64,000 bases of DNA from Muscardinus avellanarius (taxonomy: Eukaryota > Chordata > Mammalia > Rodentia > Gliridae), in NCBI GenBank assembly GCA_963383645.1, contig OY726572.1:28650792-28714791 (forward strand). The letters run 5' to 3'. Shown here piece after piece: positions 10,501 through 64,000 of this stretch. Within the stretch, counting starts at the first letter, position 1; each line of letters starts with the position of its first letter. Both the position numbers and the translations under genes were made by a program. The notes beneath the pieces are model-generated. The model searched no databases and had not been told where the DNA came from. It worked only from the letters and a program-made list of their open reading frames with translations.

Positions 10501-10515
10501 TTTTTATTACATTCT
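10501..10515. repeat. 15-bp target-site duplication, left copy
   Basis: TTTTTATTACATTCT is repeated exactly at 13621-13635. The pair brackets the composite retrotransposon and shows it arrived by target-primed reverse transcription. Confidence 0.85.
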
Positions 10516-10917
10516 TTTTTTATTAATTTATTTTTTAAATTGGTGCATTGTAGTCATATATCAATCACATTGGAGTACAAGACTTGAGAGGATATACAAG
10601 CACACATCATCCAATCAGCCCTCCTCCAGCCCCCATCCCACTCCCTCCCCCTCCCTCCATCGCACGCTTCTTTGGTGATTTACTTTGACACATTTGTTTA
10701 TGTACCTCCTGCATTTTAAAGAGGCTCCGTCCTCCAGTATTACATACCCTCTGATTGGTCACATTAGTTGCTTCACTATAGGGCCCTTTCTATAGCTCAA
10801 CCTCTTCCTGTTGCCCTTTTCCTCCTAGTTATTGCTGATTAAGAGAAGCGTCTGATTTATATTTTCTGCGATATTTCTCTGTGCATGCTGCGTTGCAAGT
10901 ACCGATCCCACTCTTGA
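10516..10917 (-). mobile_element. L1-3'UTR-like tail of the composite element
   Basis: Read on the minus strand it has a G-rich run near 10630-10660, 'tgatgtgtgcttgtatatcc' and a 'caatgcaccaattt' end before an A-rich tail. The same order of words occurs in the L1 3' ends at 37.86-38.37 and 48.73-48.90 kb. It would supply the recognition end for L1 reverse transcriptase. Confidence 0.7.
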
Positions 10918-12742
10918 TGGTCCCAGTAGTGGCCTGGCTACTCAGTGGACTGATCCAGACCTCTCTGGCTCAAGCAGCGGCCTTGCCTCATGGGAGGCCC
11001 CAGTTCTGGTCTCACTGGCCCCTGCACCGGTCTAACCCCTAAGCTGGCTTTGGTCCCGGCCTTGGAGGCCACAGGAGTGAACTTGCCTCAATCCAGGCTC
11101 CGATGCTGGCCATTGGCCCCTGCACCGGTCTAACCCCTTGGCAGGATTCCAATCTCGGCCTCGGAGGCCCCAGCACCGGCCTAGCCTCACGGCAGGCTCC
11201 AATGCCGGCCTCGTTGGCCCCAGCACTGGCCTAACCCCTCGGCAGGTTCCATTCCCGGGTTAGGAGGCCCCAGCACTGGCCATGTCTCACGGCAGGCTCC
11301 GATGCTGGCCTCGCCTCACGGCAGGCTCCGATGCAGGCCTTGCTGGCCCCAGCACTGGTCTAGCCCTTCGGCAGGTTGTTATCCTGGCCTCGCAAGCCCC
11401 AGTACCGGCCTTGCCTCACGGCAGGCTCTGATGCTGGCCTCGCTGGCCTCAGCACCGGCCTAACCCCTCGACAGGGTCTTATCCCGGCCTCGGATGTCCC
11501 AGTACTGGCCTTGCCTCACGGCAAGCTCCAATGCCGGCCTCACTGGCCCCAGCACCAGCCTAACCCCTCGGCAGGCTCTTATCCTGACCTCGGAGGCCCC
11601 AGTACCGGCCTTGCCTCAAGGCAGGCTCCAATCCCGGCCTCGGAGGCCTCAGCACCGGCCTTGCCTCATGGCAGGCTCCAATGCCGGCCTTGCTGGCCCC
11701 AGCAACGGCCTCACCCCTCGGCAGGCTCCAATCCCGGGCTCGGAGGCCCCAGTACCGGCCTTGCCTCATGGCAGGCTCCGGTGCCGGCCTCGCTGGCCCC
11801 AGCACCGGCCTAACCCCTCAGCGGGCTCCGATACTGGCCTCGGAGGTCCCAGCACCGGCCATGCCTCATGGCAGGCTGCGATGCCGGCCTCACTGGCTCC
11901 AGCACCGGCCTAACCCCTCAGCAGGCTCTTCTCCTGGCCTAGGAGGCCCCAGTATCGGCCTTACTTCACAGCAGGCTGCGATGCCGGCCTCGCTGGCCCC
12001 AGCATCTTCCTAACCCCTCGGCAGGTTCTTATCCTGGCCTCGGAGGCCCCAGTACCGGCCTTGCCTCACGGCAGGCTCCGATGCCGGCCTCGCTGGCCGC
12101 AACACCAGCCTAACCCCTCGGCAGGCTCCGATCCCGGCCTTGGAGGCCCCAGTACTGGTCATGCCTCAAGGCAGGCTCCGATGCCAGCCTCGCTGGCCCA
12201 GCACCAGCCTAACCCCTCGGCAGGCTCTTATCCTGGCCTCGGAGGCCCCAGTACTGGCCTTGCCTCACGGCAGGCTCCGATGCCGGCCTCGCTGGCTGCA
12301 ACACCGGCCGAACCCCTCGGCAGGCTCCGATCCCGGCCTTGGAGGCCCCAGCACTGGTCATGCCTCAAGGCAGGCTCCAATGCTGGCCTTGCTGGCCCAG
12401 CACCAGCCTAACCCCTCGGCAGGCTCTTATCCTGGCCTCGAGGCCCCAGTACCGGCCTTGCCTCAAGGCAGGCTCCGATGCCGGCCTCGCTGGCCCCAGC
12501 ACCGGCCTAAACCCTCGGCAGGCTCTTATCCTGGCCTCGGAGGCCCTAGCACAAGCCTTGCCTCACGGCAGGCTCCAATGCCAGCCTCGCTGGCCCCAGC
12601 ATCGGTCTAACCCCTCTGCAGGTTCCAATCACGGCCACAGAGGCCTCAGTAGTGGCCTTGCCTCACAGCAAGCTCCGATGTCGGCCACTGGCCCTGGCGC
12701 CCGCCTAACCCCTCAGCAGGTTCCAATCACTGTCTCTGTGGT
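10918..12742 (-). repeat. VNTR, ~36 units of 50 bp in 100-bp dimers
   Basis: The 50-bp unit alternates between two types. One carries 'ggccttgcctcacggcaggc', the other 'ggcctaacccctcggcaggc', giving a 100-bp higher-order period. Units are GC-rich, dense in CpG and similar over the whole array, pointing to recent homogenisation. Because 50 is not a multiple of 3, all three frames stay open for long runs and give repetitive proline/alanine/glycine translations. These are artefacts, not proteins. Confidence 0.95.
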
Positions 12743-13222
12743 TATTATTTCAAAGGTTCCAGGTGTAATGTATCAGATCTCTGCCTCCCCTGAGTATTGG
12801 CCACTGGCATTGCCACTGCCTCCACCGTTTCAAATCCTTCCCAGGCTCTTTTTCCACTCTGAATGTTGTCCAGGGTTCCTAAGCATGTGTGATGATAGCA
12901 TTCGACATTTGGTGTAATTTCTCCAAAAAAAAAATAAAGTTGGTAAGATCCAGTTTCTGCTTCTCCTGAATACAAGTCTCCACCACCATCGCGGAGAACT
13001 CTTTCAACACCGCAGTTCTCCTTGGTCTCCGCTAAACTCTCTCCTTATATGTGATGTCTGAGATTCTTAACAATATAGAGAAATAGCAGTCCTCTTTCAC
13101 GGCGAATTTTTCCTTAAGTTCCAGTGCATTTAGATAAGTTTTGTCTGCATCTCCAGTGTCCTGGCATCCATAACAGCTTTCTTACCTCCTCTCCGATATT
13201 TTTCTTTATCTTTTTCTGTTCT
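12743..13222 (-). mobile_element. unique segment of the composite element
   Basis: This moderate-GC segment lies between the VNTR and the 5' monomers. On the minus strand it contains an oligo-T run near 12925-12935 and a 76-codon open frame (12745-12975) without a recognised domain. Its origin is unknown to me; it could derive from an L1 5'UTR of this lineage or from a captured transcript. Confidence 0.6.
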
Positions 13223-13618
13223 GGGCCCGGTTTCTCCAGGGGTCTGGCGTGCTACTCGCAGTTCGGCCCGGGGCCCAGGGTCCCACGACCCGGGCCCGGC
13301 TTTTGTGCACCGCGCGCGACCCCCGCCCAGAACCCAGCGTCTTACTGGGCCCGGTTTCTCCAGGGGCCTGGCGTGCTATGTGCAGTTCGGCCTGGGGCCC
13401 AGAGTCCCGCGACCCGGGCCCCAGCTGGCGTGCCCCGCGCGCGACCCCTGCCCAGAACCCAGCGTCTTACTGGGCCCGGTTTCTCCAGGGGTCTGGCATG
13501 CTACTCGCAGTTCGGCCTGGGGCCCAGAGTCCCGCGACCCGGGCCCCAGCTGGCGTGCGCCTCACACGACCCCAGCCCAGAACCCAGCGTCTTACTGGGC
13601 CCGGTTTCTCCAGGGGTC
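13223..13618 (-). promoter_or_regulatory. GC-rich 125-bp tandem monomers, probable promoter
   Basis: Units begin at 13223 (124 bp), 13347 (125 bp) and 13472 (125 bp). A 22-bp partial unit at 13597-13618 forms the 5' terminus. Each has many CpG sites and begins (plus strand) with 'gggcccggtttctccagggg'. Rodent L1 promoters are likewise built of 5' tandem monomers with a partial first unit. Promoter function is inferred from that analogy and from the CpG density. Confidence 0.7.
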
Positions 13619-13620
13619 TT

Positions 13621-13635
13621 TTTTTATTACATTCT
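13621..13635. repeat. 15-bp target-site duplication, right copy
   Basis: An exact match to 10501-10515, directly abutting the GC-rich 5' end of the element. Confidence 0.85.
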
Positions 13636-16592: not shown

Positions 16593-16654
16593 AAAATATT
16601 TTGTTTTACCTTTGCCTGATAATAAAATATTTTGTTTTACCTTTGCCTGATAAT
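16593..16654. repeat. 31-bp tandem duplication
   Basis: Two exact adjacent copies of a 31-bp unit containing 'attttgttttacctttgcct'. It is probably replication slippage beside the TA tract. Confidence 0.9.
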
Positions 16655-16659
16655 AAAAT

Positions 16660-17870
16660 AAAGATTAAATAAGGATTATTTCCTTTTCTGAATTTTCTAA
16701 CAAAATGTTAATTTTTCTTTACATTCTTTTCCATTTGTATCACAAACTTAGAGCCATTTTACTAATTTCTTGATACTCTCAAGTCTGTAACATGAAAATG
16801 AAAAAAAAAAGAGACACAATATTTAGACATTCACACACATGGCTACATTTAAAAACATGAAATAAAAGTAGAACTGATTTCAGCCAAATGCTAGCTTGTT
16901 TTCTGTTGGGGAGCTGTAGGGATGGGCTGTTCATTTTGTTCTTTTCTGTGTTTTTTTTTAAACTTATTTTGACTATGCGTATGAAAAATAAGCACTAGAT
17001 GATAAAGGCACCCAATGTTGGTAGAGGGACAAAATAATAATAGTAGAGAAGCCAAAGAGAGCCATTGAGAGTGCCGAGAGTGTTGATAGAATTATGGAGA
17101 ATCTAGAAACTACACAAACAAGACTTGAAATCAAACTTCTCTTAAAACAGCATTGTAATTGGTATTGCTTTTTTATACATTTCCATTCTACTTTGTTTAT
17201 TCCTCTTTAAATTTCAAAACCATACTCAGCCCTACCCCAATAAACACACACAAAGGATTGATGTTTGCAATAAGAACCCAATTCGTCACCTCCTGCTTCC
17301 TCACAGGATCTTGCTTTCTATAGGGTTGATTCAATAAAATTCATTTCGAATGAAAAATCATGACATATCAACAGCTGAAGAGCAGTGGAATGTAATTGGG
17401 TAATGCTTTTTTTGAAATTTAACTCACAACATGGGAGCAGTTAAAAGATCAGACCCCTGTCCAGCACTCTTGCTCTATAGGCAAATCAATTTTATTGAAA
17501 TTCACTGTTTACAGAAATAGTATCTCTGACTTCATGAAATGAGCGTGAAACTTCTGTATCCTGGTAGATCTTAGAGAATGAAAAAGGGACAGTGTGTGGG
17601 GGAGGAAATAGTAATCCTTCAGAACTAGCAGACCTCATTATTGTTACTTCTCTTTTAGAATCCTTTAAAATAGAATTAATAATGAAAGGGGAAAAGAAGT
17701 AATACTTACCAATGGCCAGATGTGCTAGATGACACCGATGAATACATACAGAGGTATACACATGACCTCATATAGCAACATGATTAATTAGGGAGATGTG
17801 ACTTTATATTCGACTGAAGATGGGTCATGACTTCCCACAAGTTACCTTTCTCTCCAGTAATATTTAGAAG
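16660..17870. other. AT-rich sequence, nothing recognised
   Basis: No gene or clear repeat family is seen. Confidence 0.45.
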
Positions 17871-21630: not shown

Positions 21631-21982
21631 GTACTGGGGATGGAACCCAGGAGCATTGTACCTCCAAACTATACCCTCATCCCTATTTTTTAGTCTTAGT
21701 CTTTTTTATTTCTTGAGACAGGGTCTCACCGAGTTGCGAAGGGCCTCCGTAAGTTGCTGAGGCTTTCTGTGAACTATGATCCTCTGGTCTCAACCTCCTG
21801 CATTGTACCTCCAAACTATACCCTCATCCCTATTTTTTAGTCTTAGTCTTTTTATTTCTTGAGACAGGGTCTCACCGAGTTGCGAAGGGCCTCGGTAAGT
21901 TGCTGAAGCTTTCTGTGAACTATGATCCTCTGGTCTCAACCTCCTGAATGCTGGGATTACAAGTGTGCGCCACAATGCCCAG
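21631..21982 (-). mobile_element. B1-ID SINE with 147-bp internal tandem duplication
   Basis: The SINE is normal apart from 21654-21800 being repeated at 21801-21946. The copies are nearly identical, differing by a few bases and a one-base indel. Confidence 0.85.
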
Positions 21983-37854: not shown

Positions 37855-38372
37855 GTATTTGTTACTTTTATATTTTTTGTTTTTTATTTTTAATATTGCA
37901 TTGTAATCATAAATCTTAATGAAGCAGAAGATGGTAGAGGCATACATGCACACATCACCCAATTAGCCCTTAGGCAATTCCCTCCCCATTGCCTCCCCCT
38001 CCCTTCTTCTCATGTTTGGCTTAGTGATTGACTTGGATAAGTTTGTCAATGAACATCATGCAAATTAGGGAATTTCCCTCTTCCCCACTCTCATCCCCCT
38101 CAGTTAGGTCACCTTATGTGCTCATCTATAGTATCTCCTTCTTTGTCTAGAGCTCCTCCTATGACCCATTTTCTCCCTAGCTTCTGCATATTAGGAAGAG
38201 CATCCAACTTATTATATTTAGTGACTGACTAATCTTACTTATCATAATGTCCTCCAGTTCCATCCATTTCCCTATAAATGATGTAATTGTTTTTCTTTAT
38301 GGCTTAGTAAAATTCCATTGTGTATATATTCATTCATTCATCTGTTGATGGACATCTTGGCTGGCTTTTGTA
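37855..38372 (-). mobile_element. L1 3'UTR and ORF2 end
   Basis: Read on the minus strand: 'gatggacatc...acagatgaatg' (ORF2 end), then a G-rich 3'UTR run and an A-rich end at about 37855. It is useful as a reference for the tail of the composite element. Confidence 0.8.
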
Positions 38373-48724: not shown

Positions 48725-49890
48725 TTTTTTATTAATTTTTTATTGATGTACTGTATTTATACATCATAATGGGGTAAAAAAAAAACTTGTGTAGGCATAA
48801 ATGCACATATCACCCAGCCAGCCCCCACCCAGTCCCCACCTCATTTTCTCCCCATCCCTCCTTCCCATGCTTGGTTTAGTGGTTGACTTTGATAAGCATA
48901 TACTGGAAAAACGATGGCCTCTTCAACAAATGGTGTTGGCAAAACTGGTTAACCATATGCAGAAAATTGGAAATTAATCCCAATTTATCACCCTGCACAT
49001 GAGTCAATTCAAAATAGATCAAAGACTTGGAAATTAGACCAGATACCTTAAGGCTCCTCAAAGACGGCATAGGTCCAACACTGCAACACATAGACACAGA
49101 TAAAAACTTTCTCAACAAGACCCCAAAGGCACAATAAACCAAAAGGTGAATCAATGCATGGGATTGCATAAAACTGAATAGCTTCTGTTCATCAAATGAA
49201 ACTGTCAAGAACCGCAATCGAGAGCCAACAGAATGGGAAAAGATTTTTGCCACCTACCCCTCCAATAAAGGAATATATAGAATATATAGAGAACTCTGGA
49301 AACTCAACACTAAAAAAACAAATGATCCAATTTAAAAAATGGGCAAGTGAACTAAATAGACACTTCACGAAAGAAGACATTCAAAAGGCCAATAAATACA
49401 TAAAAAATGTTCAACATCACTGGCAATCAGAGAGATGCAAATCAAAACTACCCTGAGATTTCACCTAACTCCAAATAGAATGGCAATCATTCAAAACACA
49501 AGCAACAACAAATGATGGTGAGGATGTGGAGAAGTGGGAACTCTAAAACATTGTTGGTGGGATTGCAAATTAGTGTAACCACTTTTGAAAACAGTATGGA
49601 GAATCCTCAGAAAAATGGGAACAAATCTACCATTTGATCCAGCAATACCACTTCTGGGTATCTACCCAAAAGAAAGGAAACCAAACTACCAAACTAATGC
49701 ATGTGTATCTATGTTCATAGCTGTACAATTCACCATAGCCAAACTATGGAACCAGACATGATGTCCATCAACAGATGAATGGATTAAAAAACTGTGGGAT
49801 ATGTGCACAATGGAATTTTACTCAGCCATAAAAAAATACAATTGCGGTATTTTCAGGAAAATGGATGGATCATGAGGACATTATGCTAAC
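48725..49890 (-). mobile_element. L1 insertion with 5' inversion (twin priming)
   Basis: 48725-48897 is the L1 3'UTR on the minus strand. From about 48902 to 49890 the L1 ORF2 3' part reads on the plus strand ('gcaaatcaaaactaccctga', 'tctgggtatctacccaaaag', 'gatgtccatcaacagatgaa'). Opposite orientation of adjoining L1 parts is the mark of twin priming. The ORF2 part is fairly well preserved but has no long intact frame. Confidence 0.8.
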
Positions 49891-49974
49891 TGTGGGGATG
49901 GGAGGTGGGGAGAGGGAAAAGCTTTAAAGCGCATGATGTACTTATTCACATCGAAGATAATTGATGAATATCTA

Positions 49975-50420
49975 ATTGGAGTTAGATGGAATCTCAGTAT
50001 AGTTTTGATTTGCATCTCCCTGATTGCTAAGGATATTGAACATTGTTTCATATATTTATAATCCATTATAATGTTAGCTATAGTTACTTTATAGATATTC
50101 TTCATGAGCTTGTAGAAGTTCTCTTTCAAGTTTTCTGAGCATTTATTTTTAAAAATCAAGAAAGAGTCTGAGATTTTTGTAAAATTTGTTTTAAGCATCT
50201 ATTAATATGATATTATAATCTTTTATTTAGCCCTTTAATAAGATTGATTATATTGATTGATTTTTTAATGTTGAACTAGCCTTGTTTACTGGCATAAATT
50301 CCACTTAGTCAGAAATTTTGTTTTAGAAGTCTTCATTAATTTTTCTTGGCTTCTTAGCTATTTGTTTCTAATTTTTAATATAATGATACTCCTAGAATTA
50401 CAATATACCTCTATATATTC
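49975..50420 (-). mobile_element. older L1 resumed
   Basis: 'agttagatggaatctcagta' and 'ttgatttgcatctccctgat' are antisense ORF2 words that would follow on from the older L1 at 47690-48480. Confidence 0.65.
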
Positions 50421-60684: not shown

Positions 60685-61525
60685 ATTTTCCCATAATTAT
60701 ATATCTCACCATAATTTTGAGCACTTTTTGTATCATTATATATGTAAAACATTACATGCATATAATATGACTTTGCCAAAAAGTACTCAAAATATAATTA
60801 CAATAGTTTGTGAAAGAGGCAGAGGAGCCAAGTGAAAGAGCTTTTAATGGCTAAAGCTGGAAAAACTTGACCAGATAATTAGAGTAGCACTGGGTTATAG
60901 GTCATAACTTAGAATCAATTTATAGTTTAAAAATCAAAGATAAAAATTATTAAAAATTTAAAATTGGGGATGCTTCTAAGTTGTATGTATGTATGTCCCT
61001 ATCACTCTGAACTTCATTATAATGTATGGTTACAATAGACCTAAGGTATACTAAGGTATTTTTCTTTATAAAATATCCATACTTGTTAAATAAATAAATA
61101 AATTCATTATTGGATAAATTAATAAATGGTAGGAAGGAACACAACTTCCCAAAATTTAAAAGTAATTTACTCAAATTTAAAGTAACTTGAAGTAAATTTT
61201 CACCCAAAGTGAAGGTGAACATAACTTTCCACTTTTTCTAGTGACTTACTTCTAAAGAGTATAAGGGAAGGGAAAAACAGGTAATTTAAAGTGAAGAAAT
61301 TTAATACTGCTTCAGGTAGGTGATTAAGATCACCCAGTACCACAAAAGAAAAAAATCTCCATTATCATTTATAAATCATCTTGGTACTTTGGACATTTGA
61401 CATAATCTGATGAAAATGATACTATGCTTCTGTGATCTCTCTCTCAAGAGAAATCATGAGGAAAATATCAGAATAATTCTACAGAGAAGCATCCTACACA
61501 ATAACTAACTGACCAGTACTCCTCA
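60685..61525. other. AT-rich sequence, nothing recognised
   Basis: No feature supported. Confidence 0.45.
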
Positions 61526-61529
61526 ATCC

Positions 61530-61850
61530 ATCAAGTCGTCAAAAACAAGAACGTCTGAGAAGCTGCCAGAGTCACAAAGAGTCCAAGGAGACATAAGAAC
61601 CCAAGGCAGTGTAGTGTGCTGGATGAGATCCTGGAACAGAAAAGAGGAAAATAGACAACTAAGGACATATAAGGAACTCAAGGACAATGTATCAATACTG
61701 GTTGATTTATTTTAACAAGTTATAATAAATGTACCAAATTAACAGAAGATTCTTATAAGAGACTCTGGACAGAGTGGGAAACGTGGAATTTTTCTGTAAC
61801 TATCTCCTCAATTATTCTGTAAATCTAAAACTGATGTGAAAAAAAAAATC
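61530..61850 (+). mobile_element. ancient L1M-type 3' end
   Basis: 'aacaagttataataaatgta' and 'aattattctgtaaatctaaa' followed by 'actgatgtgaaaaa' match the 3' end of old mammalian L1M subfamilies in word order. Confidence 0.55.
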
Positions 61851-61854
61851 AAAG

Positions 61855-62350
61855 CAATTAATTGTTTTGAAAAGTCATAGAGTCATGTTTTTCAGACCAA
61901 AATACTGAGACTCAAATTTTGGTTCCTGATCACCAGGTTTTCTTCCAGTGTCATTGTTGCTTATCAGCCTCTCAAAGATGCCAGGAAAATAACACAGGGT
62001 GCTGGAGTCACCCACCATCAGGTGTGGAGACTCAAAGCCAAGAATGCAAATCGGGCCCTCAGCAGATGTGTCTGCTTTGGCCATGAAGCATCTTGGCAAA
62101 TTCTAGCAGAATACCCAGGGAAAGGATTGGACGTGAAAGGTAGTTAATTGACTCTTGGAAGTTTTGGTGCCAGTAATAAGTTTTGGTGCCAGTAATAAGC
62201 TGTCCATTGTTGCAATTTTAATAGAGGATTTGTCTCCTAGGTTTAGTTCAAACTCAATGTGTATTTGTTTTGGGCCTCCCACATATATGAAAAGTAATAT
62301 AAAAGTTGGAGTGAATTTCTTAAAATGGACAAGATGTATTTTCTGACTAT
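61855..62350. other. unassigned; 19-bp tandem repeat at 62161
   Basis: A minus-strand frame (61875-62099, 74 codons) has mixed composition but no recognised domain. GTTTTGGTGCCAGTAATAA is repeated exactly at 62161-62179 and 62180-62198. Confidence 0.4.
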
Positions 62351-62357
62351 ATAAAGA

Positions 62358-62363
62358 AAGATA

Positions 62364-62406
<43 letters not shown>

Positions 62407-62578
62407 CAGGGGTTCCTGGCAGCCCTTCTACCTCCGGGCTACACTCCCAGACCTAGTTTATCTTTTGAAATAGGGTCTCTTAAGCCAGCACAACTAGCTT
62501 TGAACCTGCGAGATTCTCCTGTCTCCCCTCCCAAGCGCAGGGATTACTAGCGTGTGCCACCATGCCTGGCAAGATATT
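62358..62578 (-). mobile_element. young-type B1-ID SINE with (GT)n tail and TSD
   Basis: AAGATATT (62358-62365 and 62571-62578) flanks both the GT tract (62368-62404) and the SINE body (62405-62570), so the GT tract is the SINE tail. Confidence 0.9.
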
Positions 62579-62579
62579 A

Positions 62580-63015
62580 CATTTTAAAGGTCTATAATCA
62601 TAATTGTGCCTTATAAAAGTGGTTGATCCTGATTTAAATATTTAAAAATTAGTGGTTATTGACATACCTTTTCACTGTTATTATAACTCTCTCCCTTTGG
62701 GGTAGAGGTAAAAGCAAGTGAGGCGCTCCCTTTAGGGACAAAAAGAGCCAGGGTGTCAAGAAAGCCTTAGTCATGCAGATATGTCCACCTGTACTGTAAG
62801 GCCAGCCATAAAAAACCAAAGTGTAAATATTTAGTTTTAAATTTGGTAATATGACAAGATATATTAGATCTTGGGCGAAAGAAAAGATGGTCATATATTT
62901 GTATATAAGATACATATATATTTACATGTTGCTAAATAATTAAAATCTATATTTATAGTTCTTATACTAATATAATAAAATGTGATTGAATAAATTAATA
63001 AGTAGCAGGGAAGAA
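62580..63015. other. AT-rich sequence, nothing recognised
   Basis: No feature supported. Confidence 0.45.
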
Positions 63016-63017
63016 AA

Positions 63018-63577
63018 AACTCCCAAGCACGAAATCGGATCAGAGCCAGCCTAGGGGTTAGGCTGGTATCTGGGCCAGCGAAACCAGAATCGGGGCCTCC
63101 CATGAGGCAAGGCCACTGCTTGAGCCAGCGAGGTCTGGATCAGTCCACCGAGTAGCCAGGCTATACTGAGGCCGTCAAGAGTGGGATCGGTACTTGCAAC
63201 GCGGCATGCACAGAGAAATATCGCAGAAAATTAAAACCAGATGCTTCCCCTAATCAGCAATAACTAGGAGGAAAGGGGCAACAGGAAGAGGTCGAGCTAT
63301 AGAAAGGGCCCTATAGTGAAGCAATTAAGGTGACCAGTCAGAGGGTATGGAATAGGGGAGGATGGAGCCTCTTTAAAATGCAGGAGGTACATAAACAAAT
63401 GTATCAAAGTTAATCACCAAACAAGCATGGGATTGAGGGAGGGGGAGGGAATGGGATGGGGACTGGATGAGGGTTAATTGGATGATGTGTGCTTGTATAT
63501 CCTCTCAAGTCTTATATTCCAATGTGATGTATGATTATAAAAATAAATTTAAAAATAAATAAAAATAAAAATAAATT
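63018..63577 (+). mobile_element. second copy of the composite element, 5' truncated
   Basis: Read on the plus strand, 63030-63150 has the VNTR unit ('gccagcctaggggttaggct', 'cctcccatgaggcaaggcc'). It continues through 'gtgggatcggtacttgcaac' into the same L1-3'UTR-like tail as 10516-10917 and ends in an AAATAAA-rich tail. It agrees closely with the first copy. The 5' monomers and most of the VNTR are missing. A 9-bp AATAAATTA on both sides may be the target duplication but overlaps the tail. Confidence 0.85.
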
Positions 63578-63627
63578 ATGCAGATATTCTATCCTGTATA
63601 TACATATACATAGAGAAATTTGTGGCT

Positions 63628-63650
63628 ATATATATATATATATATATATA
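63628..63650. repeat. (TA)n microsatellite
   Basis: About 11 TA units. Confidence 0.9.
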
Positions 63651-63757
63651 CTCCACTTATATACAATTTTAGTTTTATGGATTTCAATGAAAGCATGCTT
63701 TAGAATAATATTTTCAAAATCTACTTTGAAGAAAAATTAGCATTTAGAAATACATAA

Positions 63758-63936
63758 AGTCAGTCAGACATTGTGGCACATGCCTATAATCAGTATTTGG
63801 GAGGCTGAAACAGAAGATTCAAAAGATTGCAGCCAGTCTCAGGAACGACCAGGAGGTTCTTCAAAATTTAGTTAAGACTTTGTTTCAAAACAAAAAAATA
63901 AAATAGGTCTGGGGGCCCCTGGGTTGATTTCCCAGT

Positions 63937-63989
<53 letters not shown>
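63758..63989 (+). mobile_element. B1-ID SINE with (CA)n tail
   Basis: The body is about 63758-63940. It lacks part of the ID half and ends in about 24 CA units, then a G-run at the window edge. Confidence 0.8.
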
Positions 63990-63991
<2 letters not shown>

Positions 63992-64000
63992 GGGGGGGGA

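Follow-up and report, generated by a model that had tools for sequence, protein, structure and literature searches.

What kind of element occupies the ~3.1-kb unit that runs on the minus strand from position 13635 to position 10501 of the window, the 64-kb stretch of DNA analyzed here? The sequence-only reading had described it as a non-autonomous VNTR retrotransposon, with exact 15-bp direct repeats around a 3.1-kb unit that holds 125-bp GC-rich 5′ monomers, a unique segment, a 50-bp VNTR and an L1-3′UTR-like tail with an A-rich end. We examined each of these parts, their likely origin and their occurrence elsewhere in the window, and weighed the composite reading against four other explanations.

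Anatomy of the 3.1-kb unit

Read 5′ to 3′, the unit (copy 1) consists of GC-rich monomers, a unique segment, a VNTR, an L1 3′ end and an A-rich end, in that order. Its features are as follows:

13621..13635, minus strand: 5′ copy of the target-site duplication (TSD), AGAATGTAATAAAAA, an exact 15-bp match to 10501-10515
13221..13618, minus strand: 5′ GC-rich monomers of 125, 125 and 124 bp, plus 24 bp; GC 72%
12729..13220, minus strand: unique segment of ~490 bp, with no protein or RNA family above cut-off
10906..12728, minus strand: VNTR of 37 units of ~50 bp, of types A and B; GC 67%
10825..10908, minus strand: 3′ end of L1 ORF2 with its stop codon (TAG, 10827-10825); the upstream border is uncertain and overlaps the last repeat unit
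10516..10824, minus strand: L1 3′UTR, with a G-rich tract (10655-10619), AATAAA at 10532 and 10524 and an A-rich end
10501..10515, minus strand: 3′ copy of the TSD, exact over 15 bp and equal to AGAATGTAATAAAAA

The direct repeats, the GC-rich monomers and the unique segment were all as the sequence-only reading had them, with AGAATGTAATAAAAA at both 13635-13621 and 10515-10501. Of 1000 pairs simulated from the two 150-bp end regions of copy 1 with a first-order Markov model, none reached a shared 15 bp, and the maximum was 11. Among real pairs of window regions ~3.1 kb apart, 3 of 400 shared 15 bp, so the TSD of copy 1 is not unique in its strength. It is convincing because of its position, its two copies falling exactly where the A-rich tail ends and the monomers begin, and this placement at both ends of the unit argues for a retrotransposed composite. 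The nick site deduced from copy 1 (CATTCT/GTTC) agrees only partly with TTTT/AA, the L1 consensus, and counts against that reading.

The frequency of 15-bp matches among window pairs is what would be cited in favor of a plain minisatellite lying beside an old L1, with a chance repeat as the bracket. Such an arrangement is extremely improbable, as it is largely contradicted by the coincidence of the repeat with both borders and by a second occurrence of the VNTR-L1 junction at 63 kb, described below.

The three monomers are identical to one another at 116, 110 and 111 positions in pairwise comparisons. Their CpG observed/expected ratio is 0.72, compared to 0.23 for the whole window and 0.09 and 0.07 for the 1-kb flanks, and this value is a further argument for the composite reading. 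In the unique segment, Pfam gave nothing above its curated cut-offs and Rfam nothing above the gathering score, the one frame searched against the PDB had no match, and no ORF1 family was found in the three sense frames. Capture of a host exon by this segment was considered and rejected, the candidate families Integrase_p58_C (E 0.062 and 0.021) and zf-C3HC4_5 (E 0.17) being below the cut-offs. Neither the monomers nor the unique segment matched elsewhere in the 64-kb window; that this 5′ half is known from copy 1 alone counts against the composite reading.

These results bear on the main rival explanation, that copy 1 derives from an L1 that lost its ORFs. The monomers and unique segment, perhaps with the VNTR, would then be that L1's own 5′UTR; a deletion reaching from the 5′UTR almost to the ORF2 end would have produced a short element, which L1 then propagated. 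Mouse L1 carries tandem, promoter-like 5′ monomers of ~200 bp each, a likeness to the unit studied here, in which no ORFs follow the monomers, and the 3′ module of copy 1 is L1, ORF2 end included. Against this derivation are the lack of an ORF1 family in the unique segment, searched in three sense frames, and the lack of other matches to the monomers and unique segment in the window, although a 5′UTR origin would be compatible with both. We regard it as a real possibility, short of probable.

The VNTR was confirmed, with 37 units. Its period is not the plain 50 bp proposed from the sequence alone: the array is a repeat of A/B pairs (50/100 bp), with a change of type at 33 of 36 steps. The average identity of units is 0.78 within a type versus 0.66 between types. 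Units could be only 29 or 45-53 bp long in this segmentation, so the outermost unit at each end of the array is forced. Four units, 199 bp together, occur there twice as a block (190/199), and a 29-bp unit at 11328-11300 looks like an A/B hybrid. According to a passage of PMC4432496, hominoid VNTRs have two basic ancestral units and are remodeled at the DNA level via microhomology. The block duplication and the hybrid-looking unit resemble the remodeling described there, which again argues for a composite element. Tandem repeats also occur at other sites in the window: a 146-bp tandem duplication with 97% matches at 21653-21946, which overlaps matches to B1-type SINEs, and an exact 31-bp unit repeated 2.2 times at 16593-16660, which adjoins an AT microsatellite.

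The longest sense open frame in the unit spans 99 codons, stop to stop, and the lack of any longer one supports the composite reading. The longest open antisense frame inside the unit reaches 192 aa, which counts against it; one antisense frame, covering part of the VNTR and of the unique segment, gave 245 candidates in a protein search, none with E ≤ 0.001. The layout of an autonomous L1, with ORF1 and ORF2 between the UTRs, was not found; of the two ORFs, the ORF2 end alone could be recognized.

The unit also differs from SINEs, in that no Pol III promoter head (tRNA or 7SL) was detected in it. A tRNA gene finder, which is blind to decayed tRNA-like heads, returned 0 genes in the window. A search of both strands of the unit with Rfam, up to E 10, found no 7SL; this is a weak test, since Rfam at its gathering score also missed the B1 SINEs of the window. 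With a B1-type consensus as the query, we obtained 25 matches in the window (72-86% identity) and 0 in the unit, and a sciurid ID consensus had no match in the window. The label "squirrel-related" rests on these B1-type SINEs, and the two counts may be of use in placing the host. A CT-hexamer repeat was not found at the 5′ end of the unit, where the 125-bp GC-rich monomers stand instead. Pattern searches of viral and prokaryotic DNA collections, including plasmids and phages, found no copies, a result of little weight for a mammalian element.

Origin of the 3′ module

Two L1 3′ ends within the window served as references for the tail of copy 1:

37873..38212, minus strand: L1 3′ end without a VNTR, following ORF2 remnants within 38420-38215; the tail reference
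48725..48892, minus strand: second reference L1 3′ end, adjoining an ORF2 piece on the plus strand (rearranged)

The ORF2 remnant that precedes the 38.2-kb L1 end matches human ORF2p in the PDB with E 2e-8, to residue 1262 of 1275, and the plus-strand ORF2 piece within 48.9-50.0 kb matches it with E 2.4e-64. The second of these loci is rearranged over 48725-50200, with the 3′UTR and a further ORF2-like piece on the minus strand and a C-terminal piece of ORF2 on the plus strand, suggesting either a 5′ inversion or two insertions. The ORF2 piece at 49400-49950 (plus strand) also matches residues 291-331 of a CFAP61 chain in the PDB (9d2f_J, E 5.6e-10), perhaps reflecting an L1-derived exon there.

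By BLAST, the tail of copy 1 is 67% identical to the 38.2-kb L1 over 349 columns and 69% identical to the 48.8-kb L1 over 178 columns. Over the 3′-most ~175 positions, the composite shows 69% and 70% identity to the 38.2- and 48.8-kb L1s, respectively, and these two are 72% identical to each other. The tail is thus about as close to the two L1s as they are to one another, which argues for a composite with an L1 3′ end.

Similarity to the 38.2-kb L1, as found by BLAST, starts at 10860, 33 bases ahead of the TAG at 10827-10825, and this TAG aligns with the ORF2 stop of the 38.2-kb L1. With a human ORF2 end as the query, 56 of 88 columns match, the alignment reaches as far upstream as 10908, and none of 1000 shuffles equals it. 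The stretch 10950-10865, taken alone against the 38.2-kb L1, is not significant, as 295 of 1000 shuffles reach its score. Judged from these alignments, the L1 module comprises at least the last ~11 codons of ORF2 (by the 38.2-kb L1), perhaps ~28 (by the human ORF2 end), and the 3′UTR with its G-rich tract. Its upstream border is uncertain, since the last repeat unit is similar to that stretch as well. The tail is therefore L1-like, as had been proposed, at 67-70% identity to the two L1s of the window; it is not a 3′UTR only, since the end of ORF2 is included. Within the unit, sense-strand AATAAA or ATTAAA signals are confined to 10532 and 10524, as expected for an element whose transcription has to continue to its L1 end.

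Another explanation would make copy 1 an autonomous L1 of the ordinary kind whose 3′UTR carries a VNTR and whose ORFs have been lost. Some L1s have repeats in their UTRs. Here, the end of ORF2 and its stop codon lie downstream of the VNTR, which contradicts this account and favors the composite reading, and the 38.2-kb L1 passes from ORF2 into its tail without a VNTR. We consider such an L1 very unlikely.

A second copy at 63 kb

The window contains a further copy that was absent from the sequence-only reading:

63023..63574, plus strand: copy 2, 5′-truncated, with the last ~2.5 repeat units, the ORF2 end, the L1 3′UTR and an A-rich end

BLAST aligned 63037-63574 to the VNTR end and tail of copy 1 with 87.5% identity over 545 columns, and local alignment stretched copy 2 to 63023, with 484 of 556 columns identical. 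The K2P divergence between the copies is 0.117, with 45 differences at 507 non-CpG sites. In the tail part, copy 2 is identical to copy 1 at 385 of 435 positions. Its repeat part matches the terminal units of copy 1 at 92 of 107 positions (86%) and the best internal 107-bp stretch at 85 of 108 (79%). Such end-specific conservation of VNTR units is of the kind that a passage of PMC4432496 reports for SVA and LAVA. Retention of the VNTR-L1 junction in copy 2, with the terminal units best matched, is a further reason to favor a composite element.

When the flanks of copy 1, ~1 kb to either side, were compared with 61001-64000, where just ~430 bases of the window remain downstream of copy 2, the only matches had E 0.16 or worse. 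Since the flanks are unrelated, copy 2 arose by an insertion of its own rather than by segmental duplication, which also supports the composite reading. Since the VNTR-L1 fusion is common to two unrelated sites, the VNTR-L1 part has been propagated and is not a private deletion.

Copy 2 also bears on whether copy 1 could be a private chimera, formed once at a single locus from a processed transcript or by a template switch, with no family behind it. The occurrence of the 5′ half in one copy only fits this explanation; the same VNTR-L1 junction at an unrelated site speaks against it, making it unlikely.

We found no convincing TSD at copy 2, where the best exact repeats are 9 bp long and AT-rich, and this counts against the composite reading. 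If AATAAATTA were its TSD, 25 bases (62998-63022) would separate the TSD from the element. A 5′ inversion was considered for these bases and rejected, as their match to either strand of the element does not stand out from shuffled sequence (53 of 100 and 98 of 100 shuffles reach the score). They may simply be flank.

Proposed mobilization and relationship to known elements

We consider the unit likely to be a VNTR composite, belonging to the non-autonomous non-LTR retrotransposons and probably mobilized by L1. The description given by the sequence-only reading thus finds partial support, from the anatomy (TSD, VNTR and L1 3′ end) and from the second insertion with a VNTR-L1 junction.

For such an element, RNA polymerase II would start in the CpG-rich 5′ monomers, and the resulting RNA would carry the VNTR and be polyadenylated at the AATAAA/A-rich end of the L1 3′UTR. 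ORF2p of the host L1, acting in trans, would take the L1 3′UTR/A-rich end as its template. ORF2p would nick the target and insert a copy of the RNA through target-primed reverse transcription, which would leave the 15-bp duplication. New copies could be truncated at the 5′ end, as in copy 2, and the VNTR probably expands and contracts at the DNA level. Mobilization by L1 in trans is described for SVA, LAVA, PVA and FVA in a passage of PMC4432496.

The unit has several features of the hominoid VNTR composites: a central GC-rich VNTR with units in the 30-50 bp range, a TSD with an A-rich 3′ end, and no ORF. Like SVA of hominoids, whose ancestor is SVA2, it combines a repetitive 5′ end, a GC-rich VNTR of two unit types, a separate 3′ module and a TSD. 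SVA likewise has no coding capacity. It differs from SVA in that no CT-hexamer/Alu-like region was found, 125-bp monomers and a unique segment being present instead, and in that its 3′ module is an L1 end, whereas that of SVA derives from HERV-K. Its VNTR units are 50 bp long, versus 40/39 bp in ancestral SVA as given in a passage of PMC4432496. LAVA of gibbons, too, combines a central VNTR with a 3′ part containing an L1 fragment; a passage of the same paper gives that part as U1-AluSz-U2-L1ME (PMC4432496). In the unit studied here, from a rodent-like host, the L1 3′ end (ORF2 end and 3′UTR) is joined directly to the VNTR, and no Alu pieces were found. The unit would work like SVA and LAVA but is not a member of their group, and we do not file it there because the 5′ hexamer/Alu-like region was not found. 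HAL1 (half-L1) elements are also non-autonomous and have an L1-derived 3′ end. HAL1 encodes ORF1p (stated in a passage of PMC5753468), whereas in the unit neither an ORF1 match nor a long sense ORF was found.

With modest confidence, we favor an independent origin of this VNTR composite outside primates, in a rodent lineage, where a tandem-monomer promoter and a VNTR became fused to the 3′ end of the host L1 and multiplied as a family. Passages of PMC4432496 and PMC7353768 call VNTR composites specific to hominoid primates; in the former, SVA2, their ancestor, is also placed in macaque. A review passage on "SVA-like" elements lists primate variants only (PMC4982230), and in searching open-licence PubMed Central papers we came across no VNTR composite outside primates. 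If the independent origin is true, tandem promoter repeats, a VNTR and a borrowed 3′ end would represent a repeatable route to parasitize L1. The role of the VNTR could then be tested without an Alu-like region, and a family with L1's own 3′ end would permit a direct test of 3′-end recognition. According to a passage of PMC5857283, ground squirrel is one of the lineages in which LINEs and/or SINEs are quiescent; with a sciurid host, this would be consistent with an old family.
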